A stretch of DNA of 64,000 nucleotides from Halostella pelagica (GTDB taxonomy: Archaea; Halobacteriota; Halobacteria; Halobacteriales; Natronoarchaeaceae), in the NCBI GenBank assembly GCA_005954745.1, contig CP040678.1, positions 2,418,001 to 2,482,000 of the forward strand, read 5' to 3'. How positions within the stretch are numbered: the stretch's first letter is position 1; the number at the start of each line of letters is the position of its first letter. The notes under the pieces were generated by a model. It did not search any database. It was not told the DNA's origin and saw nothing but the letters and a program-made list of their open reading frames with translations. The translations under genes were made by a program, and so were the position numbers. Below are positions 55,207 through 61,998 of the stretch, one piece after another.

Positions 55207-55551
55207 TTACACTTCCGCTCCGGGTTCTTCTTTCTCGACTGTGACCTCGACGTCGTCACGGCTGACGCCGATGCGGGCGAACTGCGTGCGGATGTACTCT
55301 TTCGCCGCGTCGAGCCCTTGCTCGCGCGTGTCGAACCCGCGCGGCATCGGCGACTCGAAAGCGATCTGGAGTTCGCGCCCGTTTATCTCCTGTGTCGTGC
55401 CGCCGCTTTCGACTTCGTAGAACTCGTCGCAAACCCACACGTACGGGGCGTCTTCGTCGGGCGCACCCTTGAACGAGGGTGCGCACTCGCCGCGCTCGTA
55501 CAGCGTGCCGGTCAACTCGGTGCCGCCGGCCTGGCCGCGGACCAGTAACAT
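55207..55551 (-). CDS. Conserved haloarchaeal protein, DUF7113-like
   Basis: 114 residues from ATG 55551 (MLLVRGQAGGTELTG). A compact beta-rich protein with the segment FKGAPDEDAPYVWVCDEFYEVESGG and a C-terminal helical part. I recognise it as a haloarchaeal family without known function (I think DUF7113). It is divergent from herA, with a copy of the palindromic element in the gap. Confidence 0.7.
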   Translation of the reverse strand: MLLVRGQAGGTELTGTLYERGECAPSFKGAPDEDAPYVWVCDEFYEVESGGTTQEINGRELQIAFESPMPRGFDTREQGLDAAKEYIRTQFARIGVSRDDVEVTVEKEEPGAEV

Positions 55552-55702: not shown

Positions 55703-55780
55703 TATCGGAGACACTGACAGTCACTGCACCCTGATCGCACGACACCGATGTGATCTGCGTGTAAACCGTTGCAGTGACTA
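55703..55780 (-). repeat. Palindromic intergenic element, copy 1 (minus orientation)
   Basis: Its reverse complement starts AGTCACTGCAACGGTTTACA and aligns along about 65 bases with the element at 60913-60996, sharing AGTCACTG, TTCAC/TTACAC, GATC, TGTCGTGCGA and GTGCAGTGACT blocks. The inner arms GATCGCAC and GTGATC-type segments can pair. Confidence 0.7.
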
Positions 55781-55890
55781 CTGTCCTTACGACCCATTCC
55801 CACCCGGTGGGCCGCTTGTGTGTCGGATCACGAGTGATCTGACAGCGTGGCCGGAAGAAACACGCAGACCCTATCGCGACGTGAGAAAGG

Positions 55891-55919: not shown

Positions 55920-57758
55920 ATGCCCGACCTGGGAGATTACACGGAGTACGACTCCGCGGAGGACGCGGAGGAAGCGTCTGCGGACGACACTGCCGACGCC
56001 GCGGCGGCCGCGGGCGACGAGACGGACGCGTTCGAGGAGGTCGACGCGAGCGTCGCGGGCGAGGACCGCGGCGTCGGAACGGTCGCCGTCTCCGAGGGCC
56101 TCTGTATCGGCGAGGAAGCGGACGAAACGACGCTCCGGGCGTACGTGACGGCCGCCAACCGCCCCAACGTTCGCATCGGGAAGTACCTGCTCGTCCCCTA
56201 CCCCGACGAAGGCGGCGGAGGTCGAGGGACAGCCGGCGAGAAGTTGTTCTGCCGGATCACCGCCCTGGAGTACGTCCAAGAGTACCGGAGCGACGACGCC
56301 ACGGAGATCCACGCCCGGCGGGCGATGCGTAGCGACGGCATCGACGAGGCGGACTACAAGTTCCTGGCGACGCTGGAACCGGTCGCGATCCTGTACGAAG
56401 ACGGTGACGAACTGAAGCGCCGGATGACCGACCGCGTGCCGAAACCCGAGACGCCCGTCCGCGAAGCGACCGACGCCTCCGAGATCAAAACAGGTCTGAA
56501 GATGCCAGACGACGGCGTGTTTCTCGGCCACCTCTCCGTCGGCGGCGAGAAGGTCCGGACTGCCGCCGAACCGCCGACCATCGACTACCGCCTGAAAGAC
56601 GATTACGAGGACGGCGACCCCCTCGTCTTCCGGCACACGCTCGTCGCCGGTGGGACGGGGTCCGGGAAGACACACGCATCGAAGAACGCGCTCCGACAGT
56701 TCCTGTCCGAGGAGCGCACGTACGAGATGGACGACGGCCGGCAGGCCCGCGCCGCGGTCGTGCAGTTCGACCCGCAGGACGAGTACGCCCAGATGCACGA
56801 CGACAACCCGGCCATCGAGGACGCCGACCGCCGCCGCTTCGAACGCGAGGGGATCGCTCACGGCGGTCACGACGACACGAAGGCGCTGGTTCCGGTGGTC
56901 GACGGGACGAGTTACGGCGCGGACCACCACCGCGCCGAGCAGGTCGAGTTCACCATCCCGTTCTCGATGGTGAAGGCGAACCGCTGGCTCATCGCGGGCG
57001 GACAGTTGAACGACAACCAGTTCAACGCGCTCGACGTGCTGGTCGACCGCTTCTTCCGACAGTACGGTGACGGCGGCACCTACGAGCAGTTCCGCTCGTT
57101 CCTCGACGACCCGGCGCTACGCGAGGAACTCCACGAGAGCGGGTCCGTCCACGAAGCGACGTTCGACGCAGTCAAGCGCCGGGTCCGTGGGTTCGGCGAC
57201 GTGTTCGACGGCGACGCCCGCCCGATCACCGAGCAGATATCGGAACTGGTCCGTCCCGGCGGCCTCACCGTCGTTCCGACGTACCACGTCAACGATACGC
57301 GGGCAACCGAGGTCATCGTCCTCGCCGTCTCCAGCCTACTCATCGACCAGAAACTGTCGAACGCGCCGACGTACGACCGGATCAAGGAGACGCCGCTCGT
57401 CGTCGGGATGGACGAGGCCCACAACTTCCTCACGGACGCCGAGAGCGTTCAGGCCCGGAAGGTCATCGGGAAGTTCACCGAAGCGGCGAAGCAGGGCCGC
57501 AAGGAACGACTGGGACTCTTTCTCATCACTCAGGACCCACAGGATATCGCGGACTCCGTGTTCAAGCAGATAAACACGACCGTCGTCCTCAATCTCGGCG
57601 ACGAGGACGCCATCTCGTCGGTTAACATCCCGTCGAACTTAGAGGGGAAGGTTCCGTACATGGAGAAGGGCCAGATGGTCGTCTACTCGCCTGACAACTC
57701 CGAACCCGTCGAACTCATCGGCCTCCCGAAGTGCCTGACCAAACACGGGCGGGAGTAG
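55920..57758 (+). CDS. herA: HerA DNA translocase ATPase
   Basis: 612 residues from ATG 55920 (MPDLGDYTEY). Acidic N-terminal tail to about residue 45, then a HAS-type barrel, and a RecA/FtsK-like ATPase core with Walker A AGGTGSGKTHASKN near residue 245, Walker B VVGMDEAHNFL near residue 500, and ITQDPQDIADSVFKQINT at the subunit interface. HerA forms a hexameric translocase that drives DNA into NurA during end resection. The TATA box is 22 bases upstream. Confidence 0.9.
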   Translation: MPDLGDYTEYDSAEDAEEASADDTADAAAAAGDETDAFEEVDASVAGEDRGVGTVAVSEGLCIGEEADETTLRAYVTAANRPNVRIGKYLLVPYPDEGGGGRGTAGEKLFCRITALEYVQEYRSDDATEIHARRAMRSDGIDEADYKFLATLEPVAILYEDGDELKRRMTDRVPKPETPVREATDASEIKTGLKMPDDGVFLGHLSVGGEKVRTAAEPPTIDYRLKDDYEDGDPLVFRHTLVAGGTGSGKTHASKNALRQFLSEERTYEMDDGRQARAAVVQFDPQDEYAQMHDDNPAIEDADRRRFEREGIAHGGHDDTKALVPVVDGTSYGADHHRAEQVEFTIPFSMVKANRWLIAGGQLNDNQFNALDVLVDRFFRQYGDGGTYEQFRSFLDDPALREELHESGSVHEATFDAVKRRVRGFGDVFDGDARPITEQISELVRPGGLTVVPTYHVNDTRATEVIVLAVSSLLIDQKLSNAPTYDRIKETPLVVGMDEAHNFLTDAESVQARKVIGKFTEAAKQGRKERLGLFLITQDPQDIADSVFKQINTTVVLNLGDEDAISSVNIPSNLEGKVPYMEKGQMVVYSPDNSEPVELIGLPKCLTKHGRE

Positions 57759-58459: not shown

Positions 58460-58591
58460 GTCGTGGGCTACGACGAAGACCCGGAAAAGAATGGACCCGT
58501 TACACGTTGGCTCCGAGGGCTGGCGGGGGTGAACACGGAACGTTGCGGCCGGGAGCGCGGCGCGAGGCAGAGCGCCGAGCGTCGCGCGACT

Positions 58592-58725
58592 CGGGGGAGG
58601 GCAGGCCTGCGAACGAGTCAAGCAATAGATCTGCGAACGAGCGAAGCGAGTGAACGGCCTTTTTTGATCGATGTTTTTTGGCCGAGTGGTGTGCTCGCTG
58701 AGCGAGCACGCCCGAGGCGAAAAAA
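58592..58725. terminator. T-tract terminators and GC-motif spacer
   Basis: GGCC-T6-GATCGATG-T6-GGCC spans 58656-58683, giving two T6 tracts on the plus strand. A6 at 58720-58725 gives a T6 seven bases past the KaiC-like stop on the minus strand. GTGCTCG/CGAGCAC forms a hairpin at 58691-58709. The 14-mer CGGGGGAGGGCAGG at 58592-58605 recurs exactly at 62166-62179. Confidence 0.5.
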
Positions 58726-58731
58726 GTCGTC

Positions 58732-59871
58732 TTAAAAGATATTCGCCTGCCGATACACGCTCAGCCCCTCGCCGGTGATCTCGTAGGGCTTCGTCTCCCG
58801 GGAGTGGTTGGCGTCCCGGATCTTCTGTATCTCGATGGCGAGGCGGGTTTCGCGGAAGTCCGAGGGGCGAACGTACTGGAGGACGAAGACGGCGTCGGTG
58901 AGGTATTCGACGATGCCGTGACGGGAAGCGTAGTCGTTGTCCTCGCTGGCCTCGCTCGTCATCAGCGTCGTGATTCCGGCGCGTTTCAGGCTCTTAGTGA
59001 AGTCGTATATCTCGTTGCGGCGGGTGGCGCGGTCGTCGTACATCATCTCCAGCAGGGAGACTGAGTCGAGGACGAGGCGAGTCGCCTCGAACTCCTCGAT
59101 GAGTCGCGGCAGTTCGCTCCGGATGGAGGCGAGGCTGTTTGCCATCTCGATAGGGTCGATAGCGACGACCGCTAGCTGTCCGTTCTCGACGTACTCGTCG
59201 AATTTGAACCCCTTCTCGGTCGCGCTGTTGACGACGCGTTCGCTGCTCTCTTCGAGCGTGATGTAGACGGCGCGTTCGTCCTGTTCGAGCGCCTGGTGGA
59301 GGAACTGTAGCCCGAACGTGGTCTTTCCCGTCCCGGCGCTCCCGATGGTCACCATCAGCGAGCGCTCCGGGACGCCGCCCTGGATCATCTCGTCTAACCC
59401 GTCGATTCCGAGGTCGATCCGGTCGAGTTCAGACTCGAACTCCTCGTCGTCGAACTCGTCGCCGAACCCGCCGCCGCTACCGAAGTCGGTACCGCCGAAC
59501 CCGCCGCCGAGGTCATCGTCCCCGAACTCACCGCCCATACCGAGATCCTGGTCGACCGCTGGGTCGTCATCCACGGCCAGAGATTCGCCGAACCCGGCGG
59601 CGTCGTCCGTTTCGCTTTCGCCGGTTACCCCATCCGATTCGGAACCGGTGAGCGCGGACGCGAAGTCCTCCTCGAACAGCGGGTCGTCCGTCTCGTCGTC
59701 GTCCGTCTCTTCGTCGTCCGAACCTGTCGACGGAGCGTCGGGCGAATCATCGTCCTCGACCGTCGTCGAACTGTCGTCCATCGTGGGTTCGTCGCTGCTC
59801 TCCTCGGACTCCCGTTCGTCCGCGTCTGACCCGATGGCTTGCTCGAACCAGTCGTCGGCGTTCTCGGTCAC
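58732..59871 (-). CDS. KaiC-like RecA-superfamily ATPase
   Basis: 379 residues from GTG 59871 (TENADDWFEQAIGSDADE). The first 150 residues are an acidic, glycine-rich low-complexity tail (DDDLGGGFGGTDFGSGGGF). The single KaiC domain follows: Walker A TIGSAGTGKTT, catalytic glutamates in ITLEESSER, and Walker B TRLVLDSVSLLEMM. Haloarchaeal KaiC-like proteins are signalling ATPases rather than clock proteins. It is divergent from NAD kinase. A T6 tract lies just past its stop. Confidence 0.85.
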   Translation of the reverse strand: MTENADDWFEQAIGSDADERESEESSDEPTMDDSSTTVEDDDSPDAPSTGSDDEETDDDETDDPLFEEDFASALTGSESDGVTGESETDDAAGFGESLAVDDDPAVDQDLGMGGEFGDDDLGGGFGGTDFGSGGGFGDEFDDEEFESELDRIDLGIDGLDEMIQGGVPERSLMVTIGSAGTGKTTFGLQFLHQALEQDERAVYITLEESSERVVNSATEKGFKFDEYVENGQLAVVAIDPIEMANSLASIRSELPRLIEEFEATRLVLDSVSLLEMMYDDRATRRNEIYDFTKSLKRAGITTLMTSEASEDNDYASRHGIVEYLTDAVFVLQYVRPSDFRETRLAIEIQKIRDANHSRETKPYEITGEGLSVYRQANIF

Positions 59872-60072: not shown

Positions 60073-60897
60073 ATGCACGTCGGTTTCGTCGGGCAGAAAG
60101 GCAACGATAGCGCCGCGGAACTCGTCGGTGAGATCCGGGACCGGCTGGTCGACGAGGGCGTCGAGTGCTTGATAGACGACGCGACCGCCCAGCGTCTCCG
60201 GGTCGAGGGCGTCCCCGCCGAGCGCATGCGCGACTGCGACCTCGTCGTCAGCATCGGCGGCGACGGGACCTTCCTGTTCGCGGCCCGCGGCGCGGGGTCG
60301 ACGCCTATCATGGGCGTGAACCTCGGCGAAGTCGGGTTCCTCAACGCCGTCTCGCCCGGTGACGCCGTCGACGCCGTCGCGGAGGAGGTGCGGCGGCTCC
60401 GGGAGACGGGGACGGTGAGACACCGCGAGGTACCTCGGCTGCAGGCCGAGAGCGAGAACTGGTCGCTCGACCCCGCGATCAACGAGGTCGTCGTTCAGGG
60501 GGAGCAACGCGGGCCGGGACAGGGGGCCGATATCACCGTCGAGGTCGACGGGGCGACGTACACGAGCGGTCACGCGGACGGCGTTTTGATCGCCACACAG
60601 ACCGGGAGTACGGCGTACAACCTGAGCGAGGGCGGGCCGCTCGTCAGGCCCGGCCTGGGCGCGCTCGTCGTCACGGAGATGTGTGCAGCGGACGGGATGC
60701 CGCCGCTGGTCACCGGCGACGACAGCGAGGTAACGGTACACGTCGACGACGCGCCAGCGGGATACGCGATAAGCGACGGCCGAACCCAGCGGGAACTGTC
60801 GCTGCCCGCGACAGTCCGTGTGTCGAGAGCCGACCGGCCAGTTCGGATCGCCGGGCCCGAAGTCGACTTCTTCCAGGCGCTCGACAAACTCGACTGA
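60073..60897 (+). CDS. nadK: NAD kinase
   Basis: 274 residues. The diagnostic [13 protein letters not shown] motif with the catalytic aspartate is near residue 62. Further on are [14 protein letters not shown], the NE/D region AINEVVVQ, and [25 protein letters not shown]. It phosphorylates NAD to NADP. AGTTTTTCAC near 60041-60050 may be its TATA. It complements nadABC, 12 kb upstream. Confidence 0.93.
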
Positions 60898-60912: not shown

Positions 60913-60996
60913 TATAGCAGTCACTGAAACGATTCACACGCTGATCGCATCGCTGTCGTGCGAGCAGGTGTGCAGTGACTTTCAGTGACGGCTATA
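60913..60996 (+). repeat. Palindromic intergenic element, copy 2 (84 bp)
   Basis: The outer arms TATAGCAGTCACTGAAA (60913-60929) and TTTCAGTGACGGCTATA (60980-60996) are inverted repeats with one mismatch in 17. Inside, CACACGCTGATCGCA (60935-60949) pairs imperfectly with TGCGAGCAGGTGTG (60959-60972). The whole can fold into one long hairpin. It lies between nadK and mptA. Confidence 0.75.
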
Positions 60997-61062: not shown

Positions 61063-61998
61063 ATGAGTGAGCAACTGCCGGACGTGCAGGCGTCGCGGCC
61101 CGACGTCACTGTCGGCCTGAGTCAGGTCGGCGTCACCGGCGTCGACAAACTCGTGAAGATCGCGCGAAACGGTAAGCGGCCTATCGTTCTGATGGCGGAG
61201 TTCGAAGTGTTCGTCGACCTTCCGAGTTGGCGGAAAGGTGCGGACATGTCCCGTAACATGGAAGTCATCGACGAGGTGCTGGAAGAGGCCGTCAGCGAGG
61301 AGACGTACCGCACCGAGGACGTCTGCGGCGACGCCGCCGAGCGACTACTGGAGAAACACGACTACACGAGCAAGGCCGAGGTGTCGATGGAGGCCGAGTT
61401 CGTCGTCAAGGACGAGACGCCCGAGAGCGAGAAACCCACGCAGGGGACCGTAGACATCATCGCCAGCGCCACGGCGACCGAGGACGGCACGACTGAGGAG
61501 ATCGGCGCTCGGGTCACGGGCATGACCGTCTGTCCCTGTTCGCAACGCATGATGAGCGAGCGCGCTCGGGAGAAACTGGAAGACCTCGGCGTCGAAGAGA
61601 GCGAGGTCAAGGAGTTCCTGCAAGCAGTCCCGCAGGCCGGCCACGCCCAGCGCGGCCACGCCACGCTGACCGTCGAGAGCGAGGGCGCACCCGAAGTCGA
61701 CCTCATCGACCTCATCGAGGTCGCCCGCGACTCCATGAGCGCCCGCATCTACAACCTCGCGAAACGGCCCGACGAGGACCACATGACCTACGAGGCCCAC
61801 GCGAACGCGAAGTTCGTCGAGGACTGCGTCCGCTCGATGGCCGAGGGGGTCGTGACCGAGTTCCCCGACCTGCCCGACGACGCCGTCCTCACGATGAAAC
61901 AGTCCAACGACGAATCGATCCACCAGCACAACGCCCACGCCGAGCGACAGGTCGAGATGGGTACCGTCCGCCGCGAGATCGAAGCGATGCAGGAGTAA
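61063..61998 (+). CDS. mptA: GTP cyclohydrolase MptA (FolE2-like)
   Basis: 311 residues of the COG1469 family. Key parts: [23 protein letters not shown], the metal-binding cysteine in [10 protein letters not shown] near residue 162, and histidines in [11 protein letters not shown] and QHNAHAERQ. It opens the GTP ring to 7,8-dihydroneopterin 2',3'-cyclic phosphate; in Haloferax it feeds folate and pterin synthesis. ATG 61063; CCTTAGGCGTATTC upstream contains no clear TATA. Confidence 0.94.

Follow-up and report, generated by a model that had tools for sequence, protein, structure and literature searches.

Among the short mobile repeats described so far, RUP, the repeat unit of pneumococcus, a MITE with IS630-Spn1-like ends (PMC3049150), is one of those closest to the element reported here. 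Both are short, non-coding and tightly folded, with mutually paired ends of the IS630 type, and RUP is present in about 100 intergenic copies; the two differ in sequence and in length (107 bp for RUP versus 84 bp). RUP has been reported from pneumococcus and its close relatives, whereas the haloarchaeal family spans an archaeal order and includes genomes without a detectable partner IS. On this comparison, the haloarchaeal MITE is analogous to the pneumococcal RUP. The enterobacterial palindromic repeat ERIC is 127 bp long. It is likewise palindromic over its entire length and intergenic and has been listed as a MITE (PMC10969869), while its sequence, length and host domain set it apart.

Members of the IS630 family, such as IS630 of Shigella and ISY100, duplicate a TA target, and IS630 of Shigella prefers TA within 5'-CTAG-3' (Tenzen and Ohtsubo 1991, as cited in PMC2170065). 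The haloarchaeal MITE shares both features, and its outer ends match those of a haloarchaeal IS630 lineage, but it has no transposase gene and its interior is unrelated to that of the IS. Transposase-free mobile repeats are also known from haloarchaea themselves, namely the MITEs, PATEs and SMRs of Haloquadratum walsbyi, and activity of the MITEs without an intact partner has been noted (PMC3119063). Unlike the family described here, SMRs make no target duplication and use other mobile elements as targets, and PATEs are devoid of terminal inverted repeats (PMC3119063). We found no published description of the present family in the open-access literature; it is probably undescribed, although a MITE as such is an ordinary kind of element.

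The window analysed here is a stretch of 64,000 nucleotides of the Halostella pelagica genome (contig CP040678.1, positions 2,418,001 to 2,482,000). A sequence-only reading had reported an 84-bp element with 17-bp outer arms carrying one mismatch and with an inner stem, all of which are present in the sequence (Table 1). As we set out below, this element is very probably a non-coding, 80-bp fold-back MITE that is moved in trans by a transposase of the IS630/Tc1-mariner type.

Table 1 Coordinates of the two element copies and of neighbouring genes, counted from the first letter of the window
Feature	Position	Strand	Basis or remark
84-bp MITE copy	60913..60996	+	Element proper 60915-60994 (80 bp), flanked by the TA duplication; bounds from empty sites of other copies
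Left TA, target duplication	60913..60914	.	Sequence; TA duplication demonstrated at other loci
Right TA, target duplication	60995..60996	.	Sequence; TA duplication demonstrated at other loci
Left terminal inverted repeat arm TATAGCAGTCACTGAAA	60913..60929	+	
Right terminal inverted repeat arm TTTCAGTGACGGCTATA	60980..60996	-	One mismatch with the left arm
Inner stem, 5' side	60935..60949	+	Element positions 23-37
Inner stem, 3' side	60959..60972	+	Element positions 47-60
nadK (NAD kinase), upstream neighbour	60073..60897	+	PF01513, PF20143
GTP cyclohydrolase, folE2/mptA type, downstream neighbour	61063..61998	+	PF02649
Second copy, older, degenerate, inverted orientation	55703..55785	-	G000:C1:2473703-2473785; covariance model score 69 bits
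DUF7113 gene, flanks second copy	55207..55551	-	PF23425
herA-like helicase gene, flanks second copy	55920..57758	+	PF01935

Copies in the window and across the Halobacteriales

The 84-bp copy begins 16 bp behind the nadK stop codon and ends 67 bp ahead of the mptA start, and as RNA it folds with -39.9 kcal/mol (z -4.7). Its reverse-complemented relative also exists and reaches a little beyond position 55780, where the sequence-only reading had let it end; both copies are intergenic, as had been stated, the second residing in the interval between the DUF7113 gene and herA. The idea that the inverted pair frames a herA-nadK block did not hold: the two copies are coincidental neighbours among about 50 that are dispersed in both orientations over all four contigs, and this genome-wide occurrence rules out a special tie of the element to herA or nadK. 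The nadK-mptA locus is without the element in all four congeners, with intergenic divergence blocking a base-level reading of this site. Between the two copies, at 58545-58735, the window contains another dispersed repeat made of 60-100-bp pieces including gaacgagcgaagcgagtg-like words, which has many copies in the H. pelagica genome and in all four congeners.

When the 60913 copy served as query against its own genome (3.94 Mb, four contigs), 31 places were found with E-values to 4e-31, the self-match excluded, and R1, a covariance model made from element copies, identified the approximately 50 distinct places mentioned above. Two chance similarities are thereby excluded. Among 293 sampled Halobacteriales genomes from 87 genera, R1 matched 83-84-bp copies in 103 genomes and 35 genera (E up to 1e-5), so that the earlier impression of similar hairpins in other haloarchaea is borne out. 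The MITE family is real and widespread, most likely of the IS630 type and not specific to the herA-nadK region. Genomes carry up to dozens of copies, many of them at least 15 scored places, and within a single genome many places tie at equal score; the copies read from genomes G257, G183 and G102 are identical within each genome. Plasmids of many haloarchaea bear the element as well, in 45 records where it almost always avoids annotated genes, while viral carriage was not indicated by any phage match in INPHARED or by any exact match in IMG/VR to the MITE or the IS ends. The congeners hold between zero and about ten copies each, and most copies in H. pelagica must thus postdate the split from them; they have nevertheless diverged from one another. 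Apparent tandem copies in two genomes (G051 and G176) adjoin N positions and probably arose as artefacts of assembly gaps. At loci L131, L132 and L133 on draft scaffolds, head-to-tail copies are separated by N positions, and the repeat seems to break assemblies.

Insertion sites and gene context

The mobility of the element is documented by filled and empty alleles. In G257, a filled site reads ...gtcagctc TATAGTAG...CTACTATA gtggttcg, while the empty allele in its sister genome G030 reads ...gtcgactc TA gtgggtcg, with flanks that are 94-96% identical. The filled site has gained exactly 82 bp, i.e., the 80-bp element and a duplicated TA. For other G257 copies, the two flanks were joined via one TA; these joined sequences could be aligned through the junction with empty alleles in G030, and also with an uninterrupted paralogue within G257, and the two best alignments are gap-free at the junction. 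The empty sites thus define an element of 80 bp that duplicates TA; its inverted ends measure 15 bp (17 with the TA), the end sequence being TATAGTARNNRYTGAAA. A duplication of four base pairs (TATA) was considered and rejected, because a single TA is present at the empty sites and the insertion adds 82 bp. Selection on structure or on a mobile-element end had been suggested from the sequence: mobility stood up, whereas the end of a larger element did not, since the 80-bp unit is complete and has its own target duplication. At four loci, the outermost positions, the TA included, change in concert at the two ends, and they do so in the manner of inverted rather than direct repeats: L111 and L103 carry TATCGTAG...CTACGATA, and L016 and L025 carry GATAG...CTATC. 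Target duplication does not account for these joint changes.

Insertion follows a C^TA^G rule. Among 68 copies bordered by TA on each side, the full CTAG context was found for 35, compared with 2.2% of the TA sites in the flanks, and a preceding C is present in 50 and a following G in 47. CTAG is rare in haloarchaea (about one per 4 kb), where it is under-represented and where a conserved orphan methylase acts on it (PMC6471742).

None of 52 copies in the H. pelagica genome is located within an ORF of coding composition; there are 36 intergenic copies, and the remaining 16 touch an ORF edge, these counts being approximate because ORFs were called by a simple rule of length and GC3. Orientation relative to genes is mixed. 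Eight ORFs run 15 nt into the element and end at its TGA, which occurs in frame 13-15 nt from each end. Such read-ins are expected where the target CTAG was a TAG stop codon. Some genes end in CTAG (C-TAG stop), and a gene struck at its TAG gains four codons and then stops again. Insertions of this kind are probably harmless, because the TGA of the element ends the extended gene.

Hairpin fold and covariation

The family consensus, TATAGTAGTCACTGAAACGATTTACACGCTGATCGCATCGCTGTCGTGCGATCAGGTGTGCATTGACTTTCAGTGACTACTATA, has perfect inverted repeats over its outer 17 bp, TA included, and its middle is occupied by an inner stem, ACAC.CTGATCGCA / TGCGATCAGGTGT. As RNA it folds into a single hairpin with -47.5 kcal/mol and a z-score of -9.1. 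Length is almost constant, with 84 bp in 90 and 83 bp in ten of the 109 collected copies. Sub-families swap arm sequence on both sides, e.g., TATAGTAG-TCACTGAAA versus TATAGTAG-CGCTTGCAA. Covariation analysis, which the sequence-only reading had proposed as a check, detected covariation in the outer arms and in the inner stem. In a first alignment, pair covariation exceeded that in shuffles and slid controls. The inner stem alone also covaries (score 0.196 versus 0.146 when shuffled), and when all column pairs were ranked by APC-corrected mutual information for 76 distinct 84-bp copies, the top three were the hairpin pairs 30-54, 12-73 and 9-76. Note that the copies are related and the events behind these counts are hence not independent. 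Within one sub-family of the H. pelagica genome, 13 compensated double changes stood against 5.3 in a permutation control (p 0.0005), a weak signal given that six of the 13 concern one pair that differs between sub-lineages.

Recognition of the ends by a transposase does not by itself account for covariation in the inner stem. If the element is an IS630-type MITE, its interior covariation would mean that mobile lineages keep the palindrome intact, not that it has a function for the host, and the palindrome may be kept through hairpin-templated copying or correction during replication or through selection for folding back. A possible, if rather unlikely, alternative takes the covarying interior and the constant length at face value: the hairpin would be the functional, recognised unit of an order-wide 80-bp fold-back family, its interior structure and length under selection, for example for hairpin extrusion or transcript protection, and it would be moved by a transposase other than those found in the genomes with fresh copies.

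The candidate partner and competing explanations

A search for DDE_3 transposases revealed an IS630 element of 1046-1059 bp in G153 and G183, with ends cTATAGTA[GA]NC..TAGAA. Its relatives, which are at least 72% identical to it in the catalytic ORF, have the same ends in many genera, and an IS of about 1059 bp with ends cTATAGTA[GA]NCGTTAGAA, a TA target and CTAG preference is present in more than 20 genomes. The two IS ORFs encode 174 and 163 aa and are presumably fused by frameshifting. Both score over the cut-off for NCBIfam transpos_IS630 (NF033545) and also match PF13358 and winged-helix domains. The outer 8 bp of the ends are identical between MITE and IS while the inner match is partial; the similarity is limited to the outer 8-10 bp and GAA, with an offset of one base (TTAGAA versus YTGAAA). 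The MITE occurs in 30 of 54 IS-bearing genomes versus 73 of 239 others, an association (odds ratio 2.8, p 8e-4) that takes no account of phylogeny. Thus, the element is multicopy, dispersed and short, has terminal inverted repeats, duplicates TA at its empty sites, and its ends are related to those of an autonomous IS630 lineage.

From these features we infer mobilisation in trans by an IS630 transposase, supplied by the matching lineage or a sister of it. The enzyme would bind ends beginning (TA)TAGTA[G/A]NC..T.GAA and, by cut-and-paste, would join them to a TA within CTAG, thereby duplicating the TA.

The matching IS lineage was detected in 30 of the 103 MITE-bearing genomes and is absent from the other 73, that of H. 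pelagica among them. There, no intact IS630 was found: the best match is a weak 23.5-bit fragment, and a search for the IS ends made none evident. G030, G251, G014 and G062 yielded no IS630 match over the cut-off. All that G257 has of IS630 is a fragment sharing 44% identity with the matching lineage, and the IS630 remnant of G102, considered as a partner, is broken and has other ends. The end pattern gave 51 forward matches in G102, and in G030, which is assembled as one contig, no IS lies between two matching ends. G030 does contain a 112-bp relative of the MITE with IS-like ends TATAGTAGTCGTTGAAC (L243 778-890; G030:C1:1130277-1130390), which may stand midway between the IS type and the MITE type of end. 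In the same genome, a stretch of about 2.1 kb with three ORFs lies between two near-identical, directly oriented copies (L150 1501-3731). This unit is possibly a composite; its ORFs were dismissed as a partner, having no match in Pfam or NCBIfam.

Where the partner is missing, it may have disappeared following a burst, may have been transient on plasmids, or another enzyme may have acted. An element of the same kind with a mobiliser outside IS630, e.g., an IS5/IS427-group enzyme or a plasmid-borne one not contained in the assembly, appears clearly improbable. It would explain why many identical copies occur in G102 and G257 without an intact IS630 of the matching lineage. Some IS5/IS427-group enzymes use CTAG, and IS870 belongs to the IS5 family. 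IS870 also requires CTAG, as cited in PMC6471742. However, the only IS found that combines TATAGTA[GA] ends, TA duplication and a CTAG context is IS630, and loss of the partner after a burst has been noted for the Haloquadratum MITEs (PMC3119063).

Very improbable is a structured non-coding RNA or a cis-regulatory RNA hairpin kept for a host function: the highly stable fold, the covariation of both stems, the nearly constant length and the intergenic sites would suit it, but the sites are lineage-specific with empty alleles and TA duplications, many copies are decayed, gene-relative orientation is mixed, and no Rfam family matches the element at E-values up to 1. The analysis gave no evidence that the element acts as a promoter or a small RNA. 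A REP-like element moved by a Y1 transposase (RAYT or IS200/IS605), or a repeat of the Haloquadratum PATE/SMR type, is hardly conceivable despite the palindrome, the presence of GTAG and the 80-bp length of SMR-B HqIRS41, which we set apart by its published description, because the TA duplication is contrary to Y1 chemistry and is not made by IS605-type elements, PATEs or SMRs (PMC3119063), and because the ends are true inverted repeats and not subterminal hairpins.

With the IS630-type MITE, a common and apparently unnamed haloarchaeal repeat is accounted for, one that breaks assemblies, inserts hairpins between genes and lengthens ORFs at stop codons. The 84-bp consensus, the covariance model, the TA duplication and the CTAG rule enable annotators to mark it. 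Two questions become testable: why length is nearly constant and the interior covaries across an order, and what moves the element where the partner transposase is missing. Through the link to CTAG, methylation might affect transposition.
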